Of a stretch of 64,000 nucleotides of DNA, positions 1,929 through 17,326 are shown one piece after another. A program made the position numbers and the translations under genes. Source of the DNA: Ricordea florida (taxonomy: Eukaryota; Cnidaria; Anthozoa; Corallimorpharia; Ricordeidae); the NCBI GenBank assembly GCA_949710005.1, contig OX453273.1:8556746-8620745 (forward strand), given 5' to 3'. Below the pieces are notes generated by a model. It was not told the origin of the DNA, ran no database searches, and was given only the letters and a program-made list of their open reading frames with translations. The stretch's first letter is position 1, and the number at the start of each line of letters is the position of its first letter.

Positions 1929-2303
1929 AGAGAATAGTAAGTGGGGGGTTCTAGAACACTTGATTAATTTTCAGTGAAATTTGAGTAAAAAAATTAAACA
2001 AAGATTAATCAGAAAAATTAATCAGAAAAATTAATCAGAAAAAAAAATTACATCAGAAAATTGCATCAGAGATTAATCAGAAAATTAAACAGAGATTTTT
2101 GTTATGATTATGCAATTATCAAGTATCTACAAATTGCATAAAAAAATTTATGAATTATTAATATTATTTTACTTCTTTTTAAATCTATATTAATTGAAAA
2201 TTTCTTAAATATTAATCAGAAAATTAACCAAGGATTTATAAAGTGTGGAAAAAATAATTGAAATTATGATCTAAAGATTTGAAATAAATTATTAAAAAAT
2301 GGA
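1929..2303 (+). repeat. E1 left terminal inverted repeat
   Basis: Matches 16952-17326 in inverted orientation with equal length. The outer part is G-rich (AGAGAATAGTAAGTGGGG), followed by short tandem copies of ATTAATCAGAAAA near 2005-2060, then AT-rich sequence, the promoter-like box TCTAAAGATTT at 2270-2280, and the first five bases of the polymerase gene (ATGGA). The repeat therefore carries the promoter for the terminal gene at each end. Confidence 0.9.
2270..2280 (+). promoter_or_regulatory. TCTAAAGATTT box before E1 polymerase gene
   Basis: The box lies 19 bases before the ATG at 2299, inside the TIR. The same box precedes the 148-aa gene (16975-16985, minus) and the 174-aa gene (16467-16477, minus), and variants precede most other E1 genes. 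I infer a core promoter or initiator. This is not experimentally shown. Confidence 0.55.
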
Positions 2304-5300
2304 ACGACTACAAAAACTGAATGTTAAACAGCTGTATGAACTTGTTAAAATGTTTAAAATTAAAGGGCTGTCTGGAAAGAGTAAAGCAGAACTTATCAAA
2401 GCGTTGAATAATATTCCAAAACTGGTGGAAATGTTGCGTAATCTTCCTCAAACCATATCAAACTCAGAACTTATGGAGGCGTTGCGTAATTCTACTCAAA
2501 CCACACCAACACAATATGCAAAACTAAATTTTATTGATGATGATCCACAAACACTAGAATCAGAAGATGAAGAATGGGAAAAAATTAAGAATAATGCAAA
2601 ATCTCGTAAGAGGCAAAAAAATTATCATCGTGAAAAAAGTCAAGAAAGAAATATGAAACAACCAAAACTTGAAACTGAACTTCCAGCTCGTAGAAAAAAT
2701 ATTCCAAAAACACAACTAACAAAAAATTTTATGAATGGTGAAAGAAATTATGAAAAGGAGGGTGCAAAACCAAAAACAAAACCCACCCCTAGAAAAAATA
2801 TTCCAAAAAGAAAACTCGCACCTAATTTTATAAAACCACAAAAGCCATCAAACAAAACTTTTAATTGGGGAAATTATTCATTTAAGGTGATGGATAAAGA
2901 TGAATTTTCCAAAAAGCTTGCAGATTTAACCAATGAAAATATAATAAAACTTACTAATAACAAACAACCACAACCCAAACCTAGAAAAGAGGTAAATATA
3001 TCTGATAGTGTGAGAGATGAATTGACTGAAGAAGAATTTAATATAATAGAACGAGAGACAGCATTGAATAGATATTTGAAAGTATATAGGATAAATGGAA
3101 GGAAAGGGTATGATCCTTTAAGATATCTAAATAAAATAAAAGAAAAAGTTGTGGATTTAATTAATCAGAAAAAGAAACCAATAAAGGTAAAATTTATATT
3201 AACAACTAAGTTAATAAAAGAGTCTCCAGATACAAATCGTATTGAAGAAGAGACACGAAAATTCTTTCATTCACTTACAGAAATAATTACTGATTCAGAT
3301 GATATATCTAACTTGTATGATACTATGGCTAATCGCATACTAAAGGAGTATGAAAAATATTTAAATAATGGTTATAAATGGAAATTTAGCAATATAATAT
3401 GTTTTGATATTGGAATAACACCATACAAACCGCTTAAGGGAAGTTCATATATTATAACACCATCAAATTTAGCAGCTAAAAAGGCAATTATTAACCACCA
3501 GAATTTTAATGATAATGAATGTTTTAAGTGGGCAGTAACTGAAGCTGTATTTCCAAGAGATAAAAACCTACAAAGAGTAAATAATGAATTAAGAGAAAAC
3601 TCAAAGAACTTTAACTGGACTGGAATAGAGTTCCCAGTTTCATTAAAAGATATTAATAAGTTTGAAAGGCAAAACCCCTACTATATTAATGTCTTAGGAT
3701 ATGAAAATGATAATGTATTTCCTTTAAGAATAAGTGATAATCAATTAGGAGATAATGTGATCAATTTAATTATGATATCAAATGATGGAAATAATCACTA
3801 CTGTTGGGTAAAGAGTTTAAGTAGACTTTTATCAGCACAAGTTAGTAAACATAAATGTAAAAGACACTTTTGTATCAGATGTTTTAACTCATTTCGTGAA
3901 ATAGATTCATTAGAAAAACATATCGAATACTGCAACAAAAACAAAGCAGTTAGGATTGATATGCCAAAAGATAAAAATGGAAATCCTAAATTTATTAAAT
4001 TCGTTAATTATAAAAGAAAAATGCGTATGCCATTTTTAGTATATGCCGACTTTGAGTGCTATCCAGAGAAAATTGATATAGATATAAGTTGTCTAGATAA
4101 TAGTAAAAGCTTTACTCATAAGTATCAGAAACATAAACCATCTGGATTCTGTTATTATATAAAGTGTTTTGATGAGAATATATTACCACCAAACTTTGAA
4201 AAACTTGTAAGATATACTGCAAAATCTCCAGATGAAGATGTTGCACAAATATTTGTAGAATATTTAGAGAGAGATATTAGAAGAATTTATAATGAAATAA
4301 TAAAACCAAGAAACAAAAAGTTCTATTACTATAAAAGGAGAAATATGACAGAAATAGATAAAAAAGACTATGAAAACGCTAAGAACTGTCATATATGTAA
4401 GTGTAAATTAGGAGAAGATAAGGTATTAGATCACTGCCACCTTACAGGAAAGTATAGAGGAGCAGCTCATGAAGATTGTAACTTGAATTTCAAGATTCCA
4501 AAGTTCATACCTATAGTATTTCATAATCTATCTGGATATGATTCACATTTATTTATTAAGAATCTTGGGAAAACAGCGGGTGAAATAACCCCCATAGCAA
4601 AAAATGAGGAAAAGTATATTTCTTTCTCAAAAAAGATTGTAGTTGATGAATTTATAGATATAAAAGACGGTGAAAAAAAGATAGTTAAGAGAGAAATGAG
4701 ATTCATTGATTCATTCAAATTTATGTCAACCAGTCTTGATGGTTTAGTTGATAATCTCACTAAATGTGGAAAGTGTGATGCATGTAAGCCAGGAGATTGT
4801 ATAAAGAGATACATTGAAGATGGAAAGATCATTAAGTATGAAGGTATTGGTAAATGTGGTCGATGTAAGAATTGTAATTTAGCTGAAAGTAAATGTCTTT
4901 CTCCATCAGATAAATACCTAACTGAAGTTAAAAAGTATTTTGAAGGCGAAGAATTAAATCTAACGTTAAGAAAGGGTGTATATCCATATGATTATATTGA
5001 CAGCTTTGATAAACTAAATGAAACCAAACTTCCACCAAAGGATGCATTTTTCTCAAAACTAAATGATGAAGATATAAATGAAGAAGATTACCAACATGCT
5101 AAAAATGTGTGGAAAACTTTTAATATGAAAACATTTAGGGAGTATCATGATCTATATCTCAAGTTAGATGTATTATTGTTAGCGGATGTATTCGAAAACT
5201 TTAGAAATGTTTGTATTAAAAACTATGGATTGGATCCTGCTTGGTACTACACCTCACCTAGTTTATCTTGGGATGCTATGTTAAAGTTAACTAAAGTGAA

Positions 5301-6678
5301 ATTGGAGTTACTAACTGATATTAACATGTTACTTATGTTTGAACAAGGTGTACGAGGTGGTGTATCTCAGATTTCAACTAGATATGCTAAAGCAAACAAT
5401 CCATATATGAAGGAATATGATCCAAACAAACCTAAAGAGTATATCATATATCTCGATAGAAACAATCTATATGGCGAAGCAATGAGTAAACCACTACCTA
5501 CTCATGGTTTTAAGTGGTTTGAAAAAGAAGATTTTGAAAATTGGAGAGATATACCATGCGTAATCGAGGTTGAAATAGAATATCCTGAAAATCTTCACGA
5601 TTTACATAATGATTATCCTCTAGCACCAGAGAGACTTGTTGTTAATAAGGTAGAGAAATTAATCCCAAACCTAAAAAATAAAACAAAGTATGTAGTTCAT
5701 CGAGAAACCCTAAAACTTTATGAAAGTCTGGGATTAAAAGTTACAAAAATTCACAGAGGTATTAAATTCAATGAGTCTGCATGGCGAAAACCCTACATTG
5801 ATTTGAATACTAAACTAAGATCTCAAGCAAAGAATGATTTTGAAAAAGATTTCTTTAAGTTAATGAACAATTCTGTATTTGGTAAAACCATGGAAAATAT
5901 TAGAAAAAGGGTAGACATTCATCTAGTTACAAATAAAGAAGATGCAGAAAAATTAACAATAAAACCCAACTTTAATCATTTTACTATATTTTGTGAAGAT
6001 CTGGCAGCTATCCATATGAATAAAACAAGATTAACATTTAATAAACCTGTTTACTTAGGTATGTGTATTCTAGATTTAAGTAAAGCAATAATGTATGAAT
6101 TTCATTATAATTATATCAAAAATAAATATGGAGAAAAGGCTAAGCTGTTGTTTACAGATACAGATAGTCTTGTATATGTTATAGAAACAGAAGATTTTTA
6201 CAAGGATATAAGTCCAGATGTTAGAAAAATGTTTGACACAAGTAATTATCCTAAAAAACACCCATCAGGTATAGAGACGGGTATGAATAAGAAATTAATC
6301 GGAATGTTTAAAGATGAAGCTGGTGGAATGATAATTAAGGAGTTTGTGGGATTGAGAGTGAAGTTATACGCTTATCTGACTGAAAATGATGATGAAGTAA
6401 AGAAATGTAAGGGAATGAAGAAAGAAGTTATAAAAAAGAAAATAAAATTTAATAATTATAAGGAATGTCTATCCACAGGGGAAAAACAATATAGAAAGAT
6501 GAATGTAATTGGAAGTCACTTACATGATGTTTATACTGCAACAATTAATAAAATTGCTCTATCTGCTAATGATGATAAGAGAATAATTTGTAAAGATAAA
6601 ATAAGTACTTTAGCCTATGGACATTATAGTCTCAAAACAGAATCAGGTGGAAGTTCAGTATCAAATGGTACAACTTGA
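2299..6678 (+). CDS. Protein-primed family B DNA polymerase (E1 pPolB)
   Basis: This 1459-aa protein would replicate the linear element. Residues 1-40 form a SAP-like DNA-binding helix pair. Residues 60-250 are basic, low-complexity linker. Exonuclease motif I is YADFE near 582, exo II is HNLSGYD near 741-748, and exo III is YHDLYLKLD near 948. Polymerase motif A is YLDRNNLYG near 1051, motif B KLMNNSVFGKT near 1187, motif C FTDTDS near 1285, and KLY near 1354. Between exo I and II sits a Cys/His module (CHIC...DHCHLTG...CNL, about 696-728) resembling endonuclease VII-type zinc folds. A cluster of eight cysteines at about 822-870 is absent from the E2 homologue. The 3' end overlaps the convergent integrase gene by 55 bases. 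The start follows the TCTAAAGATTT box. Confidence 0.92.
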   Translation: MERLQKLNVKQLYELVKMFKIKGLSGKSKAELIKALNNIPKLVEMLRNLPQTISNSELMEALRNSTQTTPTQYAKLNFIDDDPQTLESEDEEWEKIKNNAKSRKRQKNYHREKSQERNMKQPKLETELPARRKNIPKTQLTKNFMNGERNYEKEGAKPKTKPTPRKNIPKRKLAPNFIKPQKPSNKTFNWGNYSFKVMDKDEFSKKLADLTNENIIKLTNNKQPQPKPRKEVNISDSVRDELTEEEFNIIERETALNRYLKVYRINGRKGYDPLRYLNKIKEKVVDLINQKKKPIKVKFILTTKLIKESPDTNRIEEETRKFFHSLTEIITDSDDISNLYDTMANRILKEYEKYLNNGYKWKFSNIICFDIGITPYKPLKGSSYIITPSNLAAKKAIINHQNFNDNECFKWAVTEAVFPRDKNLQRVNNELRENSKNFNWTGIEFPVSLKDINKFERQNPYYINVLGYENDNVFPLRISDNQLGDNVINLIMISNDGNNHYCWVKSLSRLLSAQVSKHKCKRHFCIRCFNSFREIDSLEKHIEYCNKNKAVRIDMPKDKNGNPKFIKFVNYKRKMRMPFLVYADFECYPEKIDIDISCLDNSKSFTHKYQKHKPSGFCYYIKCFDENILPPNFEKLVRYTAKSPDEDVAQIFVEYLERDIRRIYNEIIKPRNKKFYYYKRRNMTEIDKKDYENAKNCHICKCKLGEDKVLDHCHLTGKYRGAAHEDCNLNFKIPKFIPIVFHNLSGYDSHLFIKNLGKTAGEITPIAKNEEKYISFSKKIVVDEFIDIKDGEKKIVKREMRFIDSFKFMSTSLDGLVDNLTKCGKCDACKPGDCIKRYIEDGKIIKYEGIGKCGRCKNCNLAESKCLSPSDKYLTEVKKYFEGEELNLTLRKGVYPYDYIDSFDKLNETKLPPKDAFFSKLNDEDINEEDYQHAKNVWKTFNMKTFREYHDLYLKLDVLLLADVFENFRNVCIKNYGLDPAWYYTSPSLSWDAMLKLTKVKLELLTDINMLLMFEQGVRGGVSQISTRYAKANNPYMKEYDPNKPKEYIIYLDRNNLYGEAMSKPLPTHGFKWFEKEDFENWRDIPCVIEVEIEYPENLHDLHNDYPLAPERLVVNKVEKLIPNLKNKTKYVVHRETLKLYESLGLKVTKIHRGIKFNESAWRKPYIDLNTKLRSQAKNDFEKDFFKLMNNSVFGKTMENIRKRVDIHLVTNKEDAEKLTIKPNFNHFTIFCEDLAAIHMNKTRLTFNKPVYLGMCILDLSKAIMYEFHYNYIKNKYGEKAKLLFTDTDSLVYVIETEDFYKDISPDVRKMFDTSNYPKKHPSGIETGMNKKLIGMFKDEAGGMIIKEFVGLRVKLYAYLTENDDEVKKCKGMKKEVIKKKIKFNNYKECLSTGEKQYRKMNVIGSHLHDVYTATINKIALSANDDKRIICKDKISTLAYGHYSLKTESGGSSVSNGTT

Positions 6679-7703
6679 ATTTCTTCTCTTACAAAACCTC
6701 GTCTTGGTCCATCTATTAAATAATATAAAACCGGTTGATTAGGTGAAATCACACTTCTAGAAATATCAAAAACTTTAATACTCCAAATAGGATCTGTAGC
6801 CCGCCTTTTTTCACCACCCTCAAGTTCCCCAGGAGAAAGTAAGTATCTAACTTTAACACTAGGAGGTAATCTAACCTCATCAAGACCCACCTCCCGTCGG
6901 TATTTTTTAGGTTCAATATCAACTTCTTTCTGTTTTATAGCCTCATCAGGTTCTTTTCCAGTTAATCTCGTTGGTGTATTATTCAAAGTTTTCAAAATAG
7001 CTGGTAATCGTTTTACCCATACTCTTGACCTTTCATCCTGCAGCATTTCTTGTGCATATTGATGACTAAATAATCGTTCGCTTAATGTTCTGTTTGCGTT
7101 TTCTACAAATGCCTGAGCCCTATGATTTCCAGCTTCACTTCTCTGGATTTCAACATTATGGTAATTCATAAGTTTTGTCACATCACCCATAAATTCTCTT
7201 CCAGGATCAACAATTAATGTTTTGGGATATTTCATTTTTCTAGAATATATTTTTGTAAAAGCATTTGAAATTTCCCGACTTTCTTTTGAGGTTAATGGTT
7301 CAGCATCTTTATATCTTGAAGCAACATCAACTACAACCAATGCGTATTTATATGTTTTTCTTCCAACTCTATCATGAGGTAAAAATAATAAATCTGCTTG
7401 GTGAATCTGATTAGGTTTATCTACAGTCCAATGTGGTCTTGGAATATATTTTGGTGCCGGTAGATATATTTGCCATATTGCTTGTTTTTGTAACCATTGT
7501 TTTGCTACATCTTCACTAACTTTTGCTTTCCCTGCTAATTTATTAATCGCAGAATATCCTTTCCAATATCCCTCAGTTGAATAATATATCCGACTTAAAG
7601 TCGGGCCCGGCTCGGGCTTCGCCCGGGAGAGCTTTGGCCCTAGAGGGGCCCCGGCTTCGCCGATCGCTCGATCCGCCGATTTTTCCAATAAGGTAGAACT
7701 CAT
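6624..7703 (-). CDS. Retroviral-type (rve) integrase of E1
   Basis: This 359-aa protein probably catalyses insertion of the element. It has the DDE triad of the RNase H-like fold: D104 (HQAD), D166 (IVDPGREF) and E201 (AFVEN), with D166 and E201 35 residues apart. A C-terminal SH3/chromo-like tail with RRATDPIWS and RGFVREE follows, as in Polinton integrases. No HHCC zinc domain is visible. Residues 8-36 are encoded by a GC-rich insert (about 7598-7683) unlike the AT-rich surroundings; the E2 homologue is 17 residues shorter here. The gene is convergent with and overlaps the polymerase gene, and its start abuts the divergent promoter shared with the capsid gene. Confidence 0.9.
   Translation of the reverse strand: MSSTLLEKSADRAIGEAGAPLGPKLSRAKPEPGPTLSRIYYSTEGYWKGYSAINKLAGKAKVSEDVAKQWLQKQAIWQIYLPAPKYIPRPHWTVDKPNQIHQADLLFLPHDRVGRKTYKYALVVVDVASRYKDAEPLTSKESREISNAFTKIYSRKMKYPKTLIVDPGREFMGDVTKLMNYHNVEIQRSEAGNHRAQAFVENANRTLSERLFSHQYAQEMLQDERSRVWVKRLPAILKTLNNTPTRLTGKEPDEAIKQKEVDIEPKKYRREVGLDEVRLPPSVKVRYLLSPGELEGGEKRRATDPIWSIKVFDISRSVISPNQPVLYYLIDGPRRGFVREEIQVVPFDTELPPDSVLRL
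7598..7683. repeat. GC-rich palindromic insert in the integrase 5' end
   Basis: A GC-rich block within AT-rich sequence contains CGGGCTTCGCCCG and CGGCTTCGCCG palindromes and the string GGGAGAGCTTTG. A related string (GGGGAGAGCTTTGCTCGAT) is inserted in the E1 capsid gene, and its complement lies at the start of the E2 integrase (38654-38672). It keeps the reading frame open. Confidence 0.55.
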
Positions 7704-7737
7704 TTAAAGATTAGCCAAAGTATCTTATAAATCAAAT
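7704..7737. promoter_or_regulatory. Compact divergent promoter between integrase and capsid genes (E1)
   Basis: Only 34 bases separate the two start codons. The region begins with TTTAAAGATTA at 7703 and continues with an AAAGTATCTTATAAATCAA core. The E2 counterpart (38603-38635) is almost identical although the coding sequences have diverged, so the spacer is under constraint. It must serve the capsid gene (+) and possibly the integrase (-). Confidence 0.6.
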
Positions 7738-9012
7738 ATGACGTCTGAAAAAATTAATCCAAATAGAATTCCACGAGAGCCATTTGGTTTGAAAGCAGAA
7801 TCAACAATGAACCGAATTACTCTCAATCCATCATCTGCTAGCCCTGGAGAAACATTATATATAAATATTCCAAAACTTTCTGAGAATTTAGTGATTGTAC
7901 CAGGAAGTGTATCTCTATTATTTGATTTAGATGTAGATGGGCATGCTAATAATACACTTGTAAATAATGTAGGTAGTAATCTTGTATCTAGATTAAGGGT
8001 TCTTTTTGGAGGTGAAACATTACAGGATACTCAAAGATATGATCTTTTTCAAACATATCACGACTTATTCTTAACAGATGAAGAACATGAAGATAGATTA
8101 AAACAAGGTATTTCTTCTGTAAACATGAGGAAGCTCAGGACAAAAGCAGGCGATGGGAAAACACAAGATACAAAAGAAGTTGATCTTTCAAAAGTACATA
8201 ACACCAAGTACCGTATACCACTAAATCACCCTATTCTAAACGATCATGGAGTTTTCTATCCAAAAGCATTAGATAATCATCTAATCTTTGAGATTACACT
8301 TGCTCCAGTTAATGATATTGTTGTTTATTCTGACACTACTAAGACTCCAGCATATTCAATCAAAAACCTTGAGTTAGAATATTCTTCCATTTCAAGCGAA
8401 TACTTGGCTCGTGAGGCACAAGCAGCTTATCAGGTTGGTAAAGGATTCTTTTATGAAAATGTCACTCTACACAAAACTTTTACCTTTTCCATAGGCGGTG
8501 ATGGTGTTATAAATCAGCATATTAATTTACCTAGAAGATCAATGACAGGGATATTATGTTTGTTTACATTACCAACCGCAGCAGGAGCACGTAACTCTGA
8601 ATTTTTTTACAATCCAGGTATAACCTCGATTAATATAGATGTTGATGGTGTACCAAATCGTTTATACTCTAAGGGGATGATACCATCAGATCTATGGGAG
8701 TCAGTAAAGAAACGTTTCGGGGGAGAGGTTGGTTCCTCCCGTTCCGGCTTCGCTGGGGAGAGCTTTGCTCGATGGTCGGTAAAGGAAAAAGATTTTTATG
8801 CTGATAAGTTTGCTCTTTGGGTTGATATGAGAACTCACCCTGATAATGGTATTCATGGAGGTGGTCTAGCATTAAACAATACACAAGATGGTGTAAAACT
8901 AGAAATTAAAAGAAAACAAAGTGGATCTGGTACTATAACCTGTCATATGTTTGTTGTAGCTGATGCAATGATGGAGATTATGAATTCAGGTTTGAGATCA
9001 ATTAAGTACTAA
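7738..9012 (+). CDS. Candidate major capsid protein of E1
   Basis: A 424-aa protein rich in beta-strand-like segments and Asn/Gly turns, with no catalytic motif. Its place next to the packaging ATPase, its size and its conservation in E2 (411 aa, 37367-38602) make it the best candidate for the double jelly-roll major capsid protein expected in a Polinton-like virus. Conserved blocks include ETLYINIPKLSENLVIVPGS near 38-57, LNHPILNDHGVFYPKAL near the middle and a C-terminal MFVVADAMMEIMNS. Compared with E2 it carries 13 extra residues near 328-342, most of them from a 30-bp GC-rich insert. The fold assignment is an inference from context; a structure prediction would decide. Confidence 0.7.
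   Translation: MTSEKINPNRIPREPFGLKAESTMNRITLNPSSASPGETLYINIPKLSENLVIVPGSVSLLFDLDVDGHANNTLVNNVGSNLVSRLRVLFGGETLQDTQRYDLFQTYHDLFLTDEEHEDRLKQGISSVNMRKLRTKAGDGKTQDTKEVDLSKVHNTKYRIPLNHPILNDHGVFYPKALDNHLIFEITLAPVNDIVVYSDTTKTPAYSIKNLELEYSSISSEYLAREAQAAYQVGKGFFYENVTLHKTFTFSIGGDGVINQHINLPRRSMTGILCLFTLPTAAGARNSEFFYNPGITSINIDVDGVPNRLYSKGMIPSDLWESVKKRFGGEVGSSRSGFAGESFARWSVKEKDFYADKFALWVDMRTHPDNGIHGGGLALNNTQDGVKLEIKRKQSGSGTITCHMFVVADAMMEIMNSGLRSIKY
8739..8768. repeat. 30-bp GC-rich in-frame insert in the E1 capsid gene
   Basis: Aligning with E2 (37601-37650, minus) shows TCCTCCCG followed directly by ATGG in E2, whereas E1 has thirty extra bases containing CGGCTTCGCTGGGGAGAGC and CTTTGCTCG between them. 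The insert adds ten codons and keeps frame. The same sequence family occurs in both integrase 5' ends. Confidence 0.65.
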
Positions 9013-9065
9013 AACCCTCTGGGCCCGCGAAGCGAATTTAAAAAAACCTTATGTTATGATACAAG

Positions 9066-9073
9066 TCTAAAGA
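9066..9073 (+). promoter_or_regulatory. TCTAAAGA box before E1 ATPase gene
   Basis: It lies 22 bases before the ATG at 9095 and is followed by the AAAAAATCATG context also seen before the 146, 72 and 330 aa genes. The intergenic segment 9013-9094 also holds a GC-rich patch (GGGCCCGCGAAGCG). In E2 the equivalent gap is only eight bases and lacks the box. Confidence 0.5.
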
Positions 9074-9094
9074 CCAACGTACGTTGAAAAAATC

Positions 9095-9721
9095 ATGGAA
9101 GAATTACGAGAAAAAATACCATTCCATTGTATTATAACCGGACCAACAAATTGTGGAAAGACAAAGTATCTCATTAATCAGTTAAGAGGGCCATTCCTAA
9201 AAATTTTTGATTACATTGTTCTAATATGCCCAACTTATTCTAAAAATAAAACTTATCATAATTTTGCTCGAGGAGATAAACATTTCTATGTATTGTCACC
9301 TGATGCTAGTAACATTGATGAGATTAATGAATTGTTAACTGATTGTCAAACTTTATTTTCTGGAACAAATACATTAATAATTTTAGATGATTGTGCTGTA
9401 TCTAATGATTTGAAGAAGCGATCAAACAAGTTTATAGATTTGGCATTCTCCGGAAGACATCACGGATTATCAGTTTGGGTTCTCACTCAGCAATTAACAT
9501 CTATAGCAAAACCATTCCGTGAAAATGTAGCCTGTGTTGTTACTTTCCATAACCCATCGCAAAAAGGCATGAAGATGTTTTTTGAAGATTATGGGGGTGA
9601 TTTGGATTATGAATCATGTAAAAAATTTGTGCAATTATTAAAAACTGAAAAATATTCTAGATTATGTTTATCTTTACGCCATCCATTTAATTGTTATTTG
9701 GAGATTCCGAACGGGGAATAG
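9095..9721 (+). CDS. A32-like (FtsK/HerA superfamily) genome-packaging ATPase of E1
   Basis: This 208-aa P-loop ATPase would pump DNA into capsids. Walker A is GPTNCGKT (residues 16-23), Walker B is TLIILDDC (93-100), and a downstream WVLTQQ (about 128-133) matches the conserved Thr-Gln sensor of vaccinia A32-type ATPases. Length fits the viral packaging family. It directly follows the capsid candidate, the usual arrangement in Polintons and virophages. In E2 only the first 73 or so residues survive, fused to another protein. Confidence 0.85.
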   Translation: MEELREKIPFHCIITGPTNCGKTKYLINQLRGPFLKIFDYIVLICPTYSKNKTYHNFARGDKHFYVLSPDASNIDEINELLTDCQTLFSGTNTLIILDDCAVSNDLKKRSNKFIDLAFSGRHHGLSVWVLTQQLTSIAKPFRENVACVVTFHNPSQKGMKMFFEDYGGDLDYESCKKFVQLLKTEKYSRLCLSLRHPFNCYLEIPNGE

Positions 9722-9755
9722 CGATTTAAAAATAGTAAATGTATCACCATAAAAG

Positions 9756-10325
9756 ATGACAGAAGTTGAAGATTATATAGAAGAAAAGACTGTAGGAAAG
9801 ACAGAGGTAAAAGATAATGATGATAATGAACTTGAAATAAAACAAGAATCACTAGCTATTCTCGCAGCTCTTGGAACCACAAAGGAATATTTAGGTGTTG
9901 ATATGAGTCTAGGTGATATAAAAAAATTATCAGTGAAAGATGTTGATAAATATTATAATCGATACCAGGCAGTATTGGGTAAGAAAATTAATAGTGGGTT
10001 AGTAGATTCATCTCTTCAATTAATTTCTAAAGTTATTTCTTACATGGTTCCTGTAGATGATATAGAAGCTCTTTGTAATGATTTGAAGAATGATGATTTA
10101 GTTAATCGTGAACTAACAAACATTGTAGGTCTATTAGCATTAAAAGCAGGAAGATTAGCAGCACTTGCTAGCGGACTATTCCAGGTTGCTAAGCATGTTA
10201 AAATAGGTAAAATACAAGAGGTTTCAAATAAAAATACCGACCGATTAAGGCAGGAATTAGATGATTCCAACAAAACTGAGCAGGATACTAAGCAAGCTGC
10301 TGATGGGTATGATACTGTTTACTAA
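9756..10325 (+). CDS. Conserved-looking 189-aa helical protein, function unknown
   Basis: I do not recognise the family. The acidic N-terminus (1-30) is followed by alpha-helical sequence with DVDKYYNRYQAVLG near 68-81 and a hydrophobic helix GLLALKAGRLAALASGLFQVA near 128-148 that could be membrane-associated. The C-terminus is charged. The gene starts 34 bases after the ATPase stop and runs in the same direction, so it is probably part of the virion-gene block. It is absent from E2, inside the deleted interval. Confidence 0.65.
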   Translation: MTEVEDYIEEKTVGKTEVKDNDDNELEIKQESLAILAALGTTKEYLGVDMSLGDIKKLSVKDVDKYYNRYQAVLGKKINSGLVDSSLQLISKVISYMVPVDDIEALCNDLKNDDLVNRELTNIVGLLALKAGRLAALASGLFQVAKHVKIGKIQEVSNKNTDRLRQELDDSNKTEQDTKQAADGYDTVY

Positions 10326-10363: not shown

Positions 10364-10804
10364 ATGTCTGAAGAAGTTGTTGAACAAATTACTAGAGATC
10401 CACCAAAAGAGACCCTGCGGGCCGCGGAGCAAGAGCAAAAAACTGTAGGTAATTCTTCAAAAAAGAGGTATAAAGATCCTAAAAAGGTTGCTGCTGGTAA
10501 AAAATTAGCTGAATATAATAAAAAAGCAAAAGAAGCGTTAGCTAGGGAAATGAAACGTGAAAGGGAACAAGAGGAGGAAGCTAAAAATGAAGAAAAGATA
10601 AATGAAGAAGAAACCACAAAACCATGGATTCCAGAGCTATCTTTTACTACTGTATTATCCATTGTTGGAATAGGGTTTACTGCATTTGACATGTTTATGA
10701 GATATTATAAAAATAGAGAACCTACCCAACCACCTCAAACATCAAATATTTCTGTACCACAACCCGCCCAACCTCACCCAACTACAAAAATAGGAATGAT
10801 ATGA
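10364..10804 (+). CDS. 146-aa single-pass membrane protein, basic coiled N-terminus
   Basis: Unrecognised. Residues 20-85 are highly charged and helical (KKVAAGKKLAEYNKKAKEAL), likely coiled-coil. One membrane segment, FTTVLSIVGIGFTAFDMFM, lies near 92-110. A Pro-rich tail follows. With three neighbouring small hydrophobic ORFs it forms a membrane-protein cassette, possibly for an internal membrane or vertex of a particle (inference). The gene has its own promoter-like box. Confidence 0.65.
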   Translation: MSEEVVEQITRDPPKETLRAAEQEQKTVGNSSKKRYKDPKKVAAGKKLAEYNKKAKEALAREMKREREQEEEAKNEEKINEEETTKPWIPELSFTTVLSIVGIGFTAFDMFMRYYKNREPTQPPQTSNISVPQPAQPHPTTKIGMI

Positions 10805-10846: not shown

Positions 10847-11065
10847 ATGTCAAACGAAAACAAACTTGTGAAAACTGTTACTGATTCTGCCGTTATTATC
10901 GGATTAGCTGCTGGAGTTGGATATATAGCTAAAAAGGCTCTTAAAGAATCATTTATGAACGATCCCTCCTCAAGTATTACAAATTATGCAAAATGGGTAG
11001 TTGTATTAACAGGTAGTATGTATCTAAAAACATATTTAGAGGATCAAAAGATTTTACCAAATTAA
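10847..11065 (+). CDS. 72-aa small membrane protein
   Basis: Unrecognised. Two hydrophobic stretches, AVIIGLAAGVGYIA (15-28) and YAKWVVVLTGSMYL (46-59), give a probable hairpin with a short polar C-terminus ending QKILPN. It is preceded by a strong copy of the promoter-like box and followed after nine bases by the next ORF, so the two may share a transcript. Its retention as an open frame in an AT-rich context supports it being a real gene. Confidence 0.6.
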   Translation: MSNENKLVKTVTDSAVIIGLAAGVGYIAKKALKESFMNDPSSSITNYAKWVVVLTGSMYLKTYLEDQKILPN

Positions 11066-11074: not shown

Positions 11075-11422
11075 ATGGCAACAATAGCAATGCTGGTTGG
11101 AGGAGCTATATTGAATGCGACAACATTTGTTGGCGGATCATATCTTGCAAAATATCTATCAGGAGATAAAACAGACACAGAAAAAATACGACACGATAAA
11201 GCAATGGAAAAATATCAAAAAGATTATGCTGAATATCAGGAAAAGAGACAGAATCTAATTGATTGGAAAGTACAACAAAAGGATGTAAAATATCAGGCAT
11301 CAAAAAATATTTCTAATACCGATGAAGCTTTGAAATTGTATAGTGAGACACATGAACCAAAATTCTCTGAAACTCTGAAAGAGCCCCGCTTTGCGGATTA
11401 TTATAGACCTAGTGTCAATTAA
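11075..11422 (+). CDS. 115-aa protein with N-terminal membrane segment
   Basis: Unrecognised. The hydrophobic N-terminus MATIAMLVGGAILNATTFVG could be a signal anchor. Residues 30-85 are charged and helical (DKAMEKYQKDYAEYQEKRQ), and the end is EPRFADYYRPS. The gene is nine bases after the 72-aa gene and four before a tiny ORF, so the three are probably co-expressed. The codons for the terminal EPRFAD use a GC-rich patch (CCCCGCTTTGCGG). Confidence 0.6.
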   Translation: MATIAMLVGGAILNATTFVGGSYLAKYLSGDKTDTEKIRHDKAMEKYQKDYAEYQEKRQNLIDWKVQQKDVKYQASKNISNTDEALKLYSETHEPKFSETLKEPRFADYYRPSVN

Positions 11423-11425: not shown

Positions 11426-11494
11426 ATGGGAGAGATGGTATATGTAGGTGGTGGTATGTTAGCTTTAGGTTATATGGCTAGTAAATTTTTATAG
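11426..11494 (+). CDS. 22-aa hydrophobic micro-ORF
   Basis: It starts ATGGGAGAG three bases after the preceding stop and ends in TAG at 11492. The peptide has a Gly-rich core (VYVGGGMLALGYMASKFL) long enough for one short membrane helix. Tight spacing and the character of the neighbouring cassette suggest a genuine mini membrane protein, but a 22-codon frame can arise by chance. No homologue is visible in E2, where this interval is deleted. Confidence 0.35.
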   Translation: MGEMVYVGGGMLALGYMASKFL

Positions 11495-11548
11495 GTGATC
11501 TAATAGCATTTATTAGAAATAATTAAAATTATAAAACTTTGGTTTAAC

Positions 11549-11562
11549 GACTCTTGAGAGTC
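11549..11562. terminator. Short hairpin between convergent genes (E1)
   Basis: GACTCT-TG-AGAGTC forms a six-base-pair stem in the 86-base gap between the rightward cassette and the leftward 84-aa gene. A role in 3'-end formation is a guess from position. Confidence 0.3.
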
Positions 11563-11580
11563 CTATCCAACTTTTTATAA

Positions 11581-11835
11581 TTAAAGTATACATATTTTAT
11601 TAATTTCCTCGGCTAACATAATTAATGTTACAATTTTTTCTTTTTCTCCAAATTCATCAATAGTCTTAACTAAATTAAATAAAAATTTTAGTTTTTCTTG
11701 TCTTTCTTTATTATCTTCAGTTTCAACAGCTATATCATATAACAAACCAAATTTTTTTCTTTTTACCCCTTCTTCTTCATCAAAATCCTTAAGTATTGAT
11801 CTCCATAAAAGTCTTTTTGCTATATTTTCTTCCAT
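11581..11835 (-). CDS. 84-aa helical protein, function unknown
   Basis: Unrecognised. The protein is fully helical and charged, with no membrane segment: it starts MEENIAKRLLWRSILKDFDEEEG and ends in EEINKICIL. It is the only minus-strand gene inside the rightward block and is followed upstream (11836-11940) by AT-rich sequence containing a GTTATGTAAC site at 11888-11897 shared with the right end. A regulatory or early role is possible, as for the other minus-strand genes, but this is inference. Confidence 0.5.
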   Translation of the reverse strand: MEENIAKRLLWRSILKDFDEEEGVKRKKFGLLYDIAVETEDNKERQEKLKFLFNLVKTIDEFGEKEKIVTLIMLAEEINKICIL

Positions 11836-11942
11836 TTTAGTTTATTATTTTTTTTGTTTTTTAAATAATAATTTTCATTTTTTTTTTGTTATGTAACACT
11901 TTCTTGCATGCTTTTCACTTTTGCTACACTGCGTTCAGTTAG

Positions 11943-11960
11943 TTTAAAGATTTCTTACTG
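11943..11960 (+). promoter_or_regulatory. TTTAAAGATTTCTTACTG box before the 330-aa gene
   Basis: Identical over 18 bases to the box at 10814-10831 and placed at the same distance from the start codon (ATG at 11975). Confidence 0.6.
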
Positions 11961-11974
11961 TTGAGTAAAAAATC

Positions 11975-12967
11975 ATGGCAGAAGGAGGATATTTACCAGA
12001 AGATTTGGATCCAACCGGACTAAATGAATCAAAAGATGATGGTGATGGTGGTAACAACAATGATACAATTTATTTATCTCAAAAAACATCCACTTCCATT
12101 CCACCTTACCCTGATGATGAGGAGGAAGAAACTTCATTTGGCGGTGTTGAAGAAAAAAAGGGGTTGTTAGATGATTATGAAGATAATTTGAATTATGCTG
12201 AAAAAGAAATAAAAAGATACTATCCTAGAGCAAAATTTAATAGATTTATAACATTTCTCAAAGATATAGGAAAAGGAATAAAAGTTCCAGCTGTTAAATT
12301 GAACAGAGGAAAAGCTGCTGAATATGTTCTTTTGGATGGTGAATTAAAAAATTTTAAAACTAAATCTAAAAAATTTACTTCTACTGTATTAGAAAATGCA
12401 TTAGGTCCAAGAGCAGAAGAAATTTTAGAAGATAATAATCATGAGATCGATAAGATAAAAGAATTACAAAACAAAAAGAAGGAGGAGAAAAAATTCCTTG
12501 AGGATAAGCCGCTTAAGACTCCCGAGGAAAGTAACCGAATAGATACTTTAGAAAGAGAAATTGCTGAGGATGATGAAGAAATAGCAAACCGTGAGATAGA
12601 GTATGAGGGAATACAAAATAGAATGTCATTGCGTGACCGTGTGAAGGCTATCTTCAAAAAGTATGGTTTTACTGTCTTTGCAGTTATTAGTGCTGTTGGT
12701 GTAATCATTGGAGTTATAGTTTCTAATCTTTCTAAAGGTCTATCAACATTAGGCAAAGGTGTTGGAAATGGTTTGAAAGCTCTCGGTAAAAAACTTGGTG
12801 AAATATTACCAGGAATGGTTGGAGCTATCGTGAGCTTTCTTTTCAAAACAGCGGGTGAGGTTATTGGGTTTTTAGGTAAGAACGCTTGGTTATTGATAAT
12901 GGCTGTGGTTCTATATTTTGTGGACCAACTGAAAGGCGGAACACAGTTTAAAAAGAAGAGAAAGTAG
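11975..12967 (+). CDS. 330-aa protein with C-terminal amphipathic and membrane helices
   Basis: Unrecognised. Residues 1-70 are acidic and low-complexity. Residues 70-225 are charged and helical, with a long coiled-coil (about 145-205). Two hydrophobic regions follow: FAVISAVGVIIGVIVSNL (about 234-251) and a stretch from MVGAIVSFLFK to IMAVVLYFVDQL (about 283-321). Between them is the amphipathic repeat GLSTLGKGVGNGLKALGKKL. The tail is basic (KKKRK). The design recalls membrane-perturbing minor virion proteins, but this is an inference from composition only. It lies in the late-like block just before the 133-aa gene and is missing in E2. Confidence 0.6.
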   Translation: MAEGGYLPEDLDPTGLNESKDDGDGGNNNDTIYLSQKTSTSIPPYPDDEEEETSFGGVEEKKGLLDDYEDNLNYAEKEIKRYYPRAKFNRFITFLKDIGKGIKVPAVKLNRGKAAEYVLLDGELKNFKTKSKKFTSTVLENALGPRAEEILEDNNHEIDKIKELQNKKKEEKKFLEDKPLKTPEESNRIDTLEREIAEDDEEIANREIEYEGIQNRMSLRDRVKAIFKKYGFTVFAVISAVGVIIGVIVSNLSKGLSTLGKGVGNGLKALGKKLGEILPGMVGAIVSFLFKTAGEVIGFLGKNAWLLIMAVVLYFVDQLKGGTQFKKKRK

Positions 12968-12982
12968 ATCTAAAACAAAATA

Positions 12983-13384
12983 ATGAATGATCGATGTAAT
13001 GATGAAATAATAACTTTTTTATCCATCACAATGTTAACTACTGAAACAACAATTTATCTAGATCCATCATTATATAATGTAAAAGATATACAAATGCTAG
13101 ATTTTTCTGGTACTAATGCAACTTCTGAAAATCCTTTATACTTAATGTGTGATCTTATTGAACCAAAGTCTTCATATTACAATCGTATACATAGTGTTGA
13201 AAATGTGGAACTCAATCCCTCTCAACTACTAGCTGTTATTCCCTCCAAAAAGTATCCAAGTTTAAGAATTACACAAACCAAAAATCCAGTGAACCACTTT
13301 ACATTATGGATTCTAGATAAAAATGGAACAAAGTTAATTTCTAATACCGTGCGTATTCGTATCAATTTAAAGATATCATGTTGA
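12983..13384 (+). CDS. 133-aa shortened minor-capsid-like protein (E1)
   Basis: Homologous to the 211-aa E2 protein at 35431-36066. Both share an ETxIYLDP start, an LMCxxxxxKSSYxN middle and an NHFxLxILD end. E1 lacks about 75 internal residues: the frame jumps from IQMLDFSGT straight to the LYLMC block. The E2 start Met aligns with a Phe here (FLSITM), so E1 must use the upstream ATG at 12983, adding MNDRCNDEIIT. This copy is therefore probably defective or remodelled. Beta-rich pattern and location suggest a penton or minor capsid role (inference). Confidence 0.55.
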   Translation: MNDRCNDEIITFLSITMLTTETTIYLDPSLYNVKDIQMLDFSGTNATSENPLYLMCDLIEPKSSYYNRIHSVENVELNPSQLLAVIPSKKYPSLRITQTKNPVNHFTLWILDKNGTKLISNTVRIRINLKISC

Positions 13385-13399
13385 GTAGTAAAATATAAT

Positions 13400-14014
13400 A
13401 TGGATGACTACAATAGAATTTATCCTGGATTACCTAATAATTCAGACCCGAGTTCCTCATTTCAGTCGGTTAATTTCAGACTACAAAAATCAAGTGAAGT
13501 ATTACAAAATCTTGAGAAAGAAATTAAACATTATGAAGATGTAAGGAAAAAATACAATAGAGCAAGAGGGATATTTACAAAAATCAGTGTTTGTAGTGGA
13601 GTGTTTTCAGTTATTCTATCTGCAAGCGGGTTGGGAACTTCTCTTACTGGTTTTGGAGCCATTATTGGTGTTCCGTTGGGTGTTGTCGGTGGAATTTGTG
13701 GTGGAGTATCTGTTGGATTTGGTGCAGCATCAAAAAGACTTTCAAATAAAGTTAGTAAACACGAACAGACTGTTTCTATAGCGAAATCAAAATTAAACAC
13801 CATTAACGACTTGGTTTCAAAAGCTTTGAAAGATAATGTTATATCTGATCAAGAATTTTCTATAATTTTAGCAGAGTTGGAAAAGTTTCAAAAACTAAAA
13901 CTAGAAATACGACAAAAATTTAGGAGGGATACAGAAAAAAACTTAAACATGTCGCAGATAAGGAGAGAAGTTCGTGCAGATCTATTAAAAGAGTTAACCA
14001 CTCCCACACATTAA
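13400..14014 (+). CDS. 204-aa coiled-coil protein with central Gly-rich hydrophobic region
   Basis: Unrecognised. Residues 25-55 form a coiled-coil. Residues 60-112 are a long glycine-rich hydrophobic stretch (FGAIIGVPLGVVGGICGGVS) able to span a membrane twice. Residues 115-195 are again helical (KLNTINDLVSKALKDNVISD, then an EEFxxIL-like QEFSIIL segment). It starts 15 bases after the 133-aa gene. Its layout fits a membrane-remodelling or scaffold protein, but no function can be assigned. Confidence 0.6.
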   Translation: MDDYNRIYPGLPNNSDPSSSFQSVNFRLQKSSEVLQNLEKEIKHYEDVRKKYNRARGIFTKISVCSGVFSVILSASGLGTSLTGFGAIIGVPLGVVGGICGGVSVGFGAASKRLSNKVSKHEQTVSIAKSKLNTINDLVSKALKDNVISDQEFSIILAELEKFQKLKLEIRQKFRRDTEKNLNMSQIRREVRADLLKELTTPTH

Positions 14015-14092
14015 AAATTTCATATGAGAAAACTGATGTAGGATGTAATTGTTTTGCTGGTATTAGAAAAGAGGTTATCTAGTCTAAAGACT

Positions 14093-14100
14093 TTTCATCT
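14093..14100 (+). promoter_or_regulatory. TCTAAAGA box before the 530-aa gene
   Basis: It lies 18 bases before the ATG at 14119, in the 104-base gap after the 204-aa gene, with AT-rich sequence on its 3' side. Confidence 0.5.
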
Positions 14101-14118
14101 TATTCTAAAAGTAATAAA

Positions 14119-15711
14119 ATGACACTATGGGCGGATTTCAGAAAAACGTATCCAAAGGTTGACCTTGATAAATTTACATTTGTATCTGATCAGTATGGTG
14201 GTTACATTAAATGGAAAGTGAATGGTATAACGATAATGTCAAATGATGATCCTACTGGAAAAACCTGGACTGATGGTCTATCACCTAATTTGAAAAGATT
14301 GTTATGGAAAGATTTAGGCCTGAGTGAATCGAATAACTTGAGTTCATTCCCAAAGAGTTTAACCATGACTAACCAAAGCTATCCTATACCAGCTATTAAC
14401 TTTGATGACTTTACAACTGATGTAACAAAAATGCTAACCTCTCTAGATATATACGTTTCAAATACGAAGAAATTCACAGCAAAAATGAGAAACATATTTG
14501 TCAATCAAGTTGTTACTTTCAAATTTGGAAAGCAGAGTAGAAAATGGTTGAACGGGCCTGATATGAACTATTGGCCTCAACAACTTAACTTTGCAGTTTG
14601 GTGTGCAACATCTGGTTGTGGGATTAGTCCTTTTGAAAGTCTAAATTACCCTAAAGTAGTGAATAGCTTCATTAAGTTTCATATATATTTCACAATAAGA
14701 CGGATATTATATGAATTAAGCCTTCCCTTACCTGATGAGCAACCCTTTGTAATAAACAATAATCCATATAATAAAGTAGCATATCATCGATTGTGTGCAG
14801 AATTTAGCATATCAAAAAACTCAGACTTTAGATGGAAAGGTGGTAGAAACGGTGGATTGGGAGATATATTTCTTGATTATGGTGCAGGATATCATGGAAA
14901 AGGAGGGGGATATCAAAATGTACATATTATAAGGAATTATGATAAAGAAGCAGATCAATGGCCTGGTGAAGGTGGTAAATTTGCTGATGACGGTGGTAAG
15001 AAAGAAAATGGTAATCTTATCTCATTTATTCGTAATGATGACTTTGCCGATTTCAAATATGCTTGGTTTATTCCTACAAGTGGGCATGGTCTCACTAAAG
15101 CCGGACTTGGTAGATTGAATCGATCTGCTGAAGCTTTTGTTTACTGTATATTAGGAGCACAAGCCAACACTAGAAATTCGATTTATGGTAATGGTGGTGG
15201 AGCTATTGAAACACAACAAGAATTCTTATCTTTATTTGAAAGTAGTGTTTTAGAAGATGATATTTCTAATTCGATTAAAAATTATCAAAAATCTGTACAG
15301 GAAACGAAATTACGGCTTGATTTAGCTGTTGCACCGGGTATATGGTTGATGCCTAGTAATATGATAATCAACACTGAAAGTGTTGTTGGATATAATAACA
15401 AACTTATGAAAGCGACTAATGATATGAAATTTGGGGTAAATAATTCACTAAACACTGAATCAAAACCTGTTGGAATAAGTCATAACTTAGGATCTTCAAA
15501 GTTAAAGTTACCTCATTCAATAGTTGAGACAAATCCAAAACCAAAAATCCTCCCAACGCAAAATGAAAAGTCGACCAAAGGCCGAGACCCACTACGTGGA
15601 AAGTCGGACGCGACCACGCAACATGAAACCAATACACGAAGCGAGCATGAAGTGCGTATATTAACATTTATAATTATCAGCGGAGGGTTAGCGTGGTATC
15701 TATTTCGGTAA
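14119..15711 (+). CDS. 530-aa C-terminally anchored protein, probable virion surface or membrane protein
   Basis: Unrecognised. The N-terminal half has FAVWCATSGCGISPFESLN near 162-180 and FHIYFTIRRILYEL near 192-205. A Gly-rich central region (FRWKGGRNGGLGDIFLDYG, GYHGKGGGY) lies near 238-270. A variable hydrophilic stretch lies at about 455-510, and a single membrane anchor near the end is LTFIIISGGLAWYLF. In E2 the part from about residue 207 onward is retained and fused to the ATPase N-terminus, with a diverged hydrophilic stretch but an almost identical anchor. The tail-anchored architecture suggests a particle-membrane or vertex protein (inference). Confidence 0.6.
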   Translation: MTLWADFRKTYPKVDLDKFTFVSDQYGGYIKWKVNGITIMSNDDPTGKTWTDGLSPNLKRLLWKDLGLSESNNLSSFPKSLTMTNQSYPIPAINFDDFTTDVTKMLTSLDIYVSNTKKFTAKMRNIFVNQVVTFKFGKQSRKWLNGPDMNYWPQQLNFAVWCATSGCGISPFESLNYPKVVNSFIKFHIYFTIRRILYELSLPLPDEQPFVINNNPYNKVAYHRLCAEFSISKNSDFRWKGGRNGGLGDIFLDYGAGYHGKGGGYQNVHIIRNYDKEADQWPGEGGKFADDGGKKENGNLISFIRNDDFADFKYAWFIPTSGHGLTKAGLGRLNRSAEAFVYCILGAQANTRNSIYGNGGGAIETQQEFLSLFESSVLEDDISNSIKNYQKSVQETKLRLDLAVAPGIWLMPSNMIINTESVVGYNNKLMKATNDMKFGVNNSLNTESKPVGISHNLGSSKLKLPHSIVETNPKPKILPTQNEKSTKGRDPLRGKSDATTQHETNTRSEHEVRILTFIIISGGLAWYLFR

Positions 15712-15925
15712 ATTTCACGTGATTATCATTGTTTTTGGATTAGTGTTCACGTGTAGAATAGATTGCATACTTTTACGACATAGCAACAAGCAAAATGTAA
15801 AGTGGATTTGAAATCGAAAAGTAGATTTTATGTTTACTTTAAAAAGGTCGGTTTCTAACGTCGCTCAGGAATGTGATTACGTCAATGCAAATTTTGTTAT
15901 GTAACACTTGATTGCGTTATATAAC
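15712..15925. promoter_or_regulatory. Convergent intergenic region with paired GTTAyrTAAC palindromes (E1)
   Basis: Between the 530-aa (+) and 174-aa (-) genes. GTTATGTAAC (15896-15905) and GTTATATAAC (15916-15925) are separated by exactly ten bases, and the second abuts the 174-aa stop. E2 has the same pair, spacing and position relative to the relic stop codon (35385-35394, 35405-35414). The rest of the region shows nothing recognisable. Confidence 0.45.
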
Positions 15926-16450
15926 TTAATCTTCACCCCATAACTCTTTCAAAAACTTTAACTCCTCGATATCAACGCACCAATCTAAATATCTAGATGG
16001 CTTCCATGCTTCAAACATCAGATCATCATACAAGTCTTTGTAGAATTTCTTTTTATGTTCTAACTTATCACTATCTATGCTTATTCCAACCACTATTGAA
16101 TCAAAAATAATATAATTAAATTCTAACTCATGATCTTCTTCATAAAAATCTTCATTAAAATCTCTTAAACCCCCATAAGATAATATTTCTTTAAAATAAT
16201 TTTCATCAAACTCCAAACCTTTTTTAAGATCTAAAATAATTCTACCTCTATAAATTTTATCATTTTTTATAAAATAAATATTACAACAAAAAGCATATCC
16301 ATTTTCTTTAACAATAAATTCGCGATATTTTGATATCTTTTTTAACAAATCTTCATTTATTGAATCTATAAATTCCCGAATAAAAAAACCTCTTTCATTT
16401 AAAAACTTTAAAGAAAGTACCCTGTATTTTAATAAAAATTTATCTTCCAT
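15926..16450 (-). CDS. 174-aa protein, function unknown (E1)
   Basis: Unrecognised. Charged, mixed alpha/beta, with no membrane segment and no clear catalytic motif. Its C-terminus, AWKPSRYLDWCVDIEEL followed by LWGED, is preserved as a 27-codon relic in E2 (35310-35393), showing the gene was once present there at the same place. It starts after the box at 16467-16477, which matches the boxes of the two TIR-proximal genes, so it is probably controlled like the polymerase. Confidence 0.6.
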   Translation of the reverse strand: MEDKFLLKYRVLSLKFLNERGFFIREFIDSINEDLLKKISKYREFIVKENGYAFCCNIYFIKNDKIYRGRIILDLKKGLEFDENYFKEILSYGGLRDFNEDFYEEDHELEFNYIIFDSIVVGISIDSDKLEHKKKFYKDLYDDLMFEAWKPSRYLDWCVDIEELKFLKELWGED

Positions 16451-16466
16451 TTTAATAATTTATTTC

Positions 16467-16477
16467 AAATCTTTAGA
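16467..16477 (-). promoter_or_regulatory. TCTAAAGATTT box before the 174-aa gene
   Basis: On the minus strand this is TCTAAAGATTTGAAATAAAT, the same extended context found at the TIR-proximal genes, although this copy lies outside the TIR. The short gap 16478-16509 holds only AT-rich sequence. Confidence 0.55.
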
Positions 16478-16509
16478 TTATAATTTAAAATTATTTTTTT
16501 TATATAAAT

Positions 16510-16956
16510 TTATGGTCCACATTCTTTACAATGATTCCTACGTTTATTATGTTTGCACATACACATCCTACAATGCCATATTTGTTTTTCATGAATACAT
16601 ATATCATATCCTCCACACTCTTTACAAAACTTTTTCTCTTTATTGTGTTTGCATAATCTAGATCCACCGCAATCCTTACAGACATATTTATATTTTTTGT
16701 GTTCACATATTTGCGATCCCTCACAATACCTACAGTGATATTTATACCTTCCATGAATACAATTATATTTATTGGTTTTATTATTTTTATTTTCAGGTAA
16801 AAGTTTAGTTAGTGTACCGTCTATATCAAACAACACATCAATTAGTTCTGATTTACGCATTCGATACCATCCTTTAATACCTTGTTCGCGAGCAATTTGT
16901 TTCAGATTTTTCACATTTTGTTTTACATCCATTAGACTTTTAATACCTTGCTCCAT
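16510..16956 (-). CDS. 148-aa SAP-like plus zinc-knuckle repeat protein (E1)
   Basis: Residues 1-50 contain a SAP-like motif (LKQIAREQGIKGWYRMRKSE), analogous to the start of the polymerase. Residues 67-148 hold about five copies of an 18-residue unit of the type CKECGGxxICxHxKxK with spaced Cys/His ligands, likely binding zinc. The E2 counterpart has eleven units. The ATG and the promoter box lie in or at the right TIR, so expression should mirror the polymerase gene. Similar CxxCGGSQICEH repeats are familiar from giant viruses; function unknown, nucleic-acid binding plausible. Confidence 0.7.
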   Translation of the reverse strand: MEQGIKSLMDVKQNVKNLKQIAREQGIKGWYRMRKSELIDVLFDIDGTLTKLLPENKNNKTNKYNCIHGRYKYHCRYCEGSQICEHKKYKYVCKDCGGSRLCKHNKEKKFCKECGGYDICIHEKQIWHCRMCMCKHNKRRNHCKECGP

Positions 16957-17326
16957 TTTTTAATAATTTATTTCAAATCTTTAGATCATAATTTCAATTA
17001 TTTTTTCCACACTTTATAAATCCTTGGTTAATTTTCTGATTAATATTTAAGAAATTTTCAATTAATATAGATTTAAAAAGAAGTAAAATAATATTAATAA
17101 TTCATAAATTTTTTTATGCAATTTGTAGATACTTGATAATTGCATAATCATAACAAAAATCTCTGTTTAATTTTCTGATTAATCTCTGATGCAATTTTCT
17201 GATGTAATTTTTTTTTCTGATTAATTTTTCTGATTAATTTTTCTGATTAATCTTTGTTTAATTTTTTTACTCAAATTTGACTGAAAATTAATCAAGTGTT
17301 CTAGAACCCCCCACTTACTATTCTCT
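16952..17326 (-). repeat. E1 right terminal inverted repeat
   Basis: Inverted copy of 1929-2303, also 375 bp. It ends CTATTCTCT at the host junction and includes the first five bases of the 148-aa gene. Confidence 0.9.

Follow-up and report, generated by a model that had tools for sequence, protein, structure and literature searches.

A high-copy Polinton lineage in Ricordea florida, probably without an adenain-type maturation protease

The stretch of DNA analysed here (the window) comprises 64,000 nt of the Ricordea florida genome (contig OX453273.1 of GCA_949710005.1, positions 8,556,746–8,620,745, forward strand) and carries at 1929–17326 an element that we call E1. We consider it probable that E1 is one of many integrated copies of an endogenous DNA virus with a double-jelly-roll capsid, that the virus belongs to a highly successful lineage of Polintons (Mavericks), and that this lineage is without an adenain-type maturation protease. 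E1 has terminal inverted repeats (TIRs), a target site duplication (TSD) and the core genes of such a virus; it belongs to a multi-copy lineage; no adenain is recognisable in it; and its capsid genes are under purifying selection. The genome searched spans 538 Mb in 48 contigs, and numbers such as L047 denote other stretches of this same genome.

The extent of E1 agrees exactly with that given in an earlier reading made from the letters alone (the sequence-only reading), which also noted the TIRs and the flanking duplication. Its terminal sequence is AGAGAATAG. A second, related element, E2, lies in the same window and is flanked by CCTCA at 34117–34121 and 44127–44131; the direct repeats GGAAG and CCTCA thus set the TSD of both elements at 5 bp. 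E1 contains 15 open frames: those for a family-B polymerase (PolB), an integrase, the major capsid protein (MCP), a packaging ATPase and a penton, plus ten others. The features of the two elements are as follows.

1924–1928: left TSD of E1, GGAAG, 5 bp
1929–2303, plus strand: left TIR, 375 nt, 100% complementary to 16952–17326
2299–6678, plus strand: PolB, 1459 aa, with motifs A and C, a vOTU-type Cys408/His500 pair and an EndoVII-like segment
6624–7703, minus strand: rve integrase, 359 aa (PF00665, E 2.4e-9, over cut-off)
7738–9012, plus strand: MCP (Capsid_N, double jelly roll), 424 aa (PF16903, E 2.8e-5)
9095–9721, plus strand: A32-like packaging ATPase, 208 aa (PF04665, E 3.1e-12)
9756–10325, plus strand: g189, function unassigned, fast-evolving
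10364–10804, plus strand: g146, function unassigned, with a hydrophobic segment, without Cys
10847–11065, plus strand: g72, small hydrophobic protein, without Cys
11075–11422, plus strand: g115, function unassigned, without Cys
11581–11835, minus strand: g84r, function unassigned; counterpart 97.6% identical in one sibling, L054
11975–12967, plus strand: g330, without Cys; acidic N-terminal half variable among copies, hydrophobic C-terminal part (189–330) conserved
12983–13384, plus strand: g133, short form of the penton (minor capsid protein); alignment to the 211-aa form shows some 90 residues missing from its centre
13400–14014, plus strand: g204, hydrophobic/coiled-coil protein, strongly conserved (dN/dS 0.11)
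14119–15711, plus strand: g530, conserved lineage protein with invariant C162/C167/H188/D236 and 963 relatives
15926–16450, minus strand: g174r, accessory, variable among copies
16510–16956, minus strand: g148r, Rho_N-like N-terminus (PF07498, E 1.4e-6) and Cys/His zinc-type repeats
16952–17326, minus strand: right TIR, 375 nt, no mismatch to the left TIR
17327–17331: right TSD of E1, GGAAG, 5 bp
34122–44126, minus strand: E2, related element, internally deleted, with 505-nt TIRs (95%) and TSD CCTCA
34418–35305, plus strand: zinc-repeat gene of E2
35431–36066: long penton of E2, 211 aa
37367–38602: MCP of E2
38636–39664, plus strand: integrase of E2
39622–43830: PolB of E2

The rve integrase, A32-like ATPase, capsid gene and further open genes reported in the sequence-only reading were all recovered as open frames, the first three also with Pfam matches. 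Its intact polymerase stands as an open frame of 1459 aa with family-B motifs A (LDRNNLYG, 1052–1059) and C (TDTDS, 1286); PF03175 gave no match to it at E 1. The MCP scores 24.2 bits with PF16903, just above the cut-off of 24, and the same profile matches 20 of 33 members of its family; it has 1015 database relatives and no sequence match was found in the PDB. Judged by this profile, the MCP of E1 is a Capsid_N, double-jelly-roll protein. Protein comparison places E1 and E2 in one lineage, so that their pairing was correct. The supposed completeness of E2 did not survive: a single E2 frame fuses ATPase residues 1–74 with residues 190–530 of g530, from which it follows that the intervening genes are gone, and we do not count E2 as another complete copy. 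Relative to the 148-aa gene of E1, the Cys/His repeat gene near the E2 terminus has grown in 54-bp steps. In g330 the N-terminal half differs in two of the three siblings that have a g330 frame (L051 and L053) and the C-terminal part is conserved, a pattern that suggests swapping of an exposed domain.

At issue is whether the lineage carries a maturation protease. Pfam was run on 16 of the 17 open reading frames (ORFs) of E1 of at least 90 aa (an antisense 103-aa ORF inside PolB, g72 and g84r lay outside the scan), and in these 16 no protease family appeared at E≤1. By Pfam, by a profile built from four adenains of the host genome and by a catalytic motif, no adenain was recognisable in E1, in E2 or in four siblings, of which the right-hand portions were covered. 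The own-genome profile gave 330–435 bits on all ten adenain stretches (three of which contain its source adenains); on six-frame translations its best values were E 1 for E2 and E 4.8 for E1, and on the ORFs of the four sibling stretches it reached at most 1.6 bits. The catalytic H-D-Q-C pattern, composed after inspection of the host genome's adenains, was present in eight of nine adenain stretches versus none of six E1-lineage stretches, L047 being excluded since an E1-type end and an adenain occur there together. Four E1 proteins – g72, g115, g146 and g330 – have no Cys at all, which leaves fewer candidates for a cysteine protease; g189, g204 and g530 retain Cys and His among four to five copies, wide conservation across the family having been examined in g530 alone. 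As regards adenain, then, the absence noted in the sequence-only reading held in every test run, own-genome and Pfam profile searches included; to say that E1 has no protease of any kind would need qualifying, since PolB keeps a vOTU-type Cys/His pattern.

In Polinton polymerases a vOTU-like domain has been described that is flanked by the priming domain and the exonuclease, with its catalytic Cys in the first helix and its His in a late strand, and is thought to release the priming protein (PMC11071308). E1 PolB has Cys408 (in ECFKWAV) and His500 (in NHYCW), in the residue order described for vOTU, and both motifs are kept in the PolBs of E1, E2 and L050 with Cys-to-His spacings of 92, 92 and 90 residues. 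We infer from this pattern a vOTU-like domain in E1-type PolB; if so, E1 retains one cysteine-protease domain, whose role is assumed to lie in replication. The same protein shows a weak Rho_N-like match at its N-terminus (E 0.047) and the EndoVII-like segment at 692–729 (E 6.1e-4, below cut-off). Elsewhere in the genome (G000), some PF03175 matches lie in frames of 1455–1461 aa, about the length of E1 PolB, at C7:11545845, C6:24574836 and C14:12789998; E1-sized polymerases that match this profile are thus present.

Adenains, as open frames of about 190–200 aa, are numerous in the same genome. PF00770 matches at 66 places, 59 of them over cut-off; for tests of location the five weakest were left out, giving a set of 61. 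On the other side, at least 99 MCPs, at least 150 short pentons and at least 150 long pentons merge into at least 347 loci of E1/E2 type. Among those listed, one of 347 has one of the 61 adenains within 15 kb, no more than chance would give (mean under random placement, 1.25). In that one case, at L047, an E1-type TIR match ends at 3590 and an adenain frame begins at 4838, some 1.2 kb past the end of the TIR; we rejected this adenain (frame within 3590–5362) as a gene of the E1 element, as it lies outside the TIR, and the locus shows that the two kinds of Polinton can lie side by side. A PF03175 match is found within 15 kb of 37 of the 61 adenains versus one of the 99 E1-type MCPs, among matches listed. 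That adenains are often paired with a different polymerase is no more than suggested by this count, because it covers the matches listed and E1-type PolBs match PF03175 poorly. No similarity was found between the MCP, penton or g530 of E1 and proteins of the adenain family, and L044 is the only adenain stretch whose integrase and ATPase show weak similarity to those of E1 (26.6% and 28.9%). We conclude that this genome holds at least two groups of Polintons, one with adenain and one without. One adenain is adjoined by a Pao-type retroelement, as fits an animal genome.

The copies themselves bear the mark of selection. Stop-free frames make up 94 of the 99 MCP matches listed, and for 28 MCP copies (30 fetched of the 99, less two truncated by stops) the ratio of nonsynonymous to synonymous divergence (dN/dS), from simple Nei–Gojobori counts among copies of one genome, is 0.083 over 378 pairs. 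Pooled values are 0.09 for the ATPase, 0.11 for g204, 0.21 for g530, 0.26 for g115, 0.41 for g189 and 0.45 for g146, with 0.39 for g330 from one pair; for the penton g133 the ratio is 0.05–0.08 in three of four pairs with E1 and 0.31 in the fourth (pooled 0.19). The capsid genes were maintained under purifying selection while the copies multiplied and, given such low ratios, the absence of a protease looks like a trait of the lineage rather than decay. Between E1 and its sibling L054 synonymous divergence (dS) is uneven, at 0.02 for g330, 0.06 for g204 and 0.71–0.73 for g189 and g146, so that blocks of the element differ in history, as recombination would give.

How such an element might work can be proposed from its genes. 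The integrase would insert the linear genome, producing the 5-bp duplication; PolB would replicate that genome from its TIR ends with a protein as primer, the vOTU-like domain within PolB setting the priming portion free. The capsid, built of MCP trimers and of pentons in pentamers, would be filled by the A32-like ATPase. Maturation of that capsid would either need no proteolysis or draw on another protease, be it the vOTU domain of PolB, an enzyme of the host or some activity that escaped detection, for example that of g530. A bolder proposal is that a large, currently or recently active animal virus lineage has dispensed with the adenain/Ulp1 protease, its capsid, penton and ATPase remaining under selection, with particles maturing uncleaved or by way of the OTU-like protease of PolB and with two kinds of vertex protein, one that has an inserted domain and one that lacks it. 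We advance this bolder proposal tentatively, and think it could well be wrong.

Several observations weigh against a protease-lacking Polinton lineage. The sample of siblings was four copies, each covered downstream of the MCP only; the locus counts for MCP and penton are lower bounds; the PolB fails to match PF03175; and the host adenain family is distant from E1, an imperfect control. At L050 an adenain stretch continues into a PolB (7702–10002) that is 52% identical to that of E1, and no E1/E2-type TIR was found there. The likeness of L050 to seven other adenain stretches ends at 7726–7728, partway through an adenain-family gene. This break suggests insertion of an E1-like element, or of part of one, into an adenain element; its PolB probably represents a further, more distant subfamily. 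Profiles also have limits. Two published insect Mavericks, although their protease keeps its catalytic triad intact, gave only E 6.1 and 0.58 with the adenovirus endoprotease profile (PMC5803895). Since genuine Maverick proteases can score this badly, a very divergent enzyme of E1 could evade the searches.

The alternative that such a divergent or unrelated protease is present in E1 and went unrecognised is the strongest of those we weighed, though we judge it unlikely. Its best candidate is g530, in which C162, C167, H188, D236 and C343 are invariant throughout 62 aligned relatives; g189 and g204 could be added by their retained Cys and His, the Cys-free proteins narrowing the choice. A predicted model of g530, of only moderate confidence (predicted local distance difference test, pLDDT, 65.5), gave no known fold, and neither Foldseek nor VIA matched it to a protease. 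In this model H188 lies within a helix and C162 close to where a helix ends on its C-terminal side, unlike the geometry of papain-type sites; a set of four Cys and one His might just as well bind a metal or serve a structural role, and the protein has a probable C-terminal membrane helix. A protease need not depend on Cys, and g330 has a PHROGs match to 'head maturation protease' at E 0.04. It is outranked by 'endolysin' (E 0.0028) and a tape-measure name (E 0.023), unrelated names that fall on the same charged region; we read all three as effects of composition.

It is improbable that the protease is supplied in trans by the adenain-bearing Polintons, with the E1 lineage as a partial satellite. 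The supply would be plentiful, and sites fitting the adenovirus protease consensus somewhat exceed shuffled expectation in the MCP (3 versus 0.91), g204 (2 versus 0.38) and g146 (1 versus 0.03); in the other E1 proteins, however, they are absent or fewer than in shuffles (PolB 0 versus 0.77, g330 1 versus 1.05). E1 moreover encodes a polymerase, an integrase, an ATPase and capsid proteins itself, and its proteins show the dissimilarity to the adenain family described above. Equally improbable is an intracellular transposon with relic capsid genes: loss of a protease would then be harmless, of no consequence for a virion, and a single genome with at least 347 loci would fit, but the purifying selection on MCP, ATPase and penton and the mostly stop-free frames argue otherwise.

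The penton of the lineage comes in two forms. For the 211-aa protein of E2 the top three Foldseek matches of a predicted model are all to the mavirus penton (E 5.7e-7 to 5.5e-6; template modelling scores 0.37–0.39). The 133-aa protein of E1 is homologous to it and lacks about 90 middle residues (30–123 of E2), which in the 211-aa model form two helices and a confident core between the outer strands; on that model the short penton looks like a jelly roll without an inserted domain. We rejected the idea that it is a broken copy: the at least 150 copies are mostly stop-free (147 of 150 listed, against 150 of 150 for the long form, also at least 150 in total). The two forms sit at separate places in the genome, and among the 99 E1-type MCPs listed, 51 have a listed short penton within 8 kb and one a listed long penton within 9 kb. 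Adintovirus pentons without the DE-loop insert were already known (PMC11071296).

By most features E1 belongs with the Polintons, broadly defined. It has TIRs with a TSD, an rve integrase, an A32/FtsK-type ATPase, a double-jelly-roll MCP and a single-jelly-roll penton; its polymerase has motifs A and C and an EndoVII-like segment without reaching PF03175 at E 1; and the adenain-type protease, usual in Polintons though not universal, was not recognised, within limited sensitivity of detection. The Polintons of PMC4028283 share with E1 the TIRs, rve integrase, A32/FtsK-like ATPase, PY MCP, PX penton and long PolB. A protease (PRO) was identified in only 74% of 72 of them, about a quarter thus resembling E1, so we did not treat a missing adenain as excluding it. 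What sets the E1 lineage apart from those elements is absence across the 347 loci examined, a protease-bearing lineage alongside, the 5-bp TSD and the short penton. Insect Mavericks of Spodoptera cells share a POLB with an endonuclease VII-like segment, the rve integrase and the A32-like ATPase, but have PRO and, in place of PY, a parvovirus-like CAP (PMC5803895); in E1 the MCP is of the Capsid_N type and no PRO was recognised. Adintoviruses share the rve integrase and pentons with or without an inserted domain, and their PolB has an OTU-like N-terminal domain, whose E1 counterpart is suggested by the Cys/His pattern; their integrases carry a chromodomain (PMC11071296). No chromodomain was found in E1, where Pfam gives only rve and a weak domain of unknown function (E≤1), or in E2, where it gives only rve (E≤0.5). 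For want of it we did not adopt an adintovirus assignment; adenain likewise was not recognised in E1. Vertebrate Mavericks are, like E1, integrated viruses with core genes under purifying selection; they have a protease and, in intact elements, 6-bp TSDs, their ends consist of AGT repeats and their genes form two opposed modules (PMC8097293); E1 differs in its 5-bp TSD, AGAGAATAG ends and gene order.

The window also contains features outside the two elements. A 508-aa ORF at 50454–51980 encodes a DDE_Tnp_1_7 transposase (piggyBac type; E 1e-86), and a 412-aa ORF at 59312–60550 has tyrosine recombinase domains (PF00589, E 1.1e-7) and adjoins repeats common to four places in the window. A tandem array at 46661–48518 comprises five to six copies of a 327–328-bp unit; arrays of 12 bp and 45 bp lie at 24570–26207, 54431–54955 and 62976–63410.

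The sequence-only reading had suggested for E1 and E2 a virion gene set of their own and had called most structural genes unfamiliar, and here it overstated their novelty. The genes for MCP, penton and packaging ATPase are those that Polintons usually have, both capsid proteins are recognisable – the MCP, with its 1015 relatives, as a Capsid_N protein, the penton by the best PDB match of its 211-aa form, that of mavirus – and Polintons without an identifiable protease are in print (PMC4028283), so that the absence is not new in itself. An Oxyrrhis polinton-like virus, too, has MCP and ATPase with no recognisable minor capsid protein (mCP) or protease (PMC12721341). Searches of an open-access library gave no published high-copy, protease-lacking lineage beside a protease-bearing one. 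New in detail are the vOTU-type Cys/His pair in PolB, the two penton forms and the mosaic exchange among copies.

For eukaryotic viruses with double-jelly-roll capsids, an adenovirus-like protease is counted among the four genes of the ancestral virion module (PMC10328495). With the E1 lineage beside a protease-keeping lineage in one genome, the need for proteolytic maturation becomes testable, and the route by which the particle matures comes into question. The two penton forms, together with the mosaic of dS, offer a natural comparison for the exchange of vertex proteins and gene blocks among endogenous viruses.

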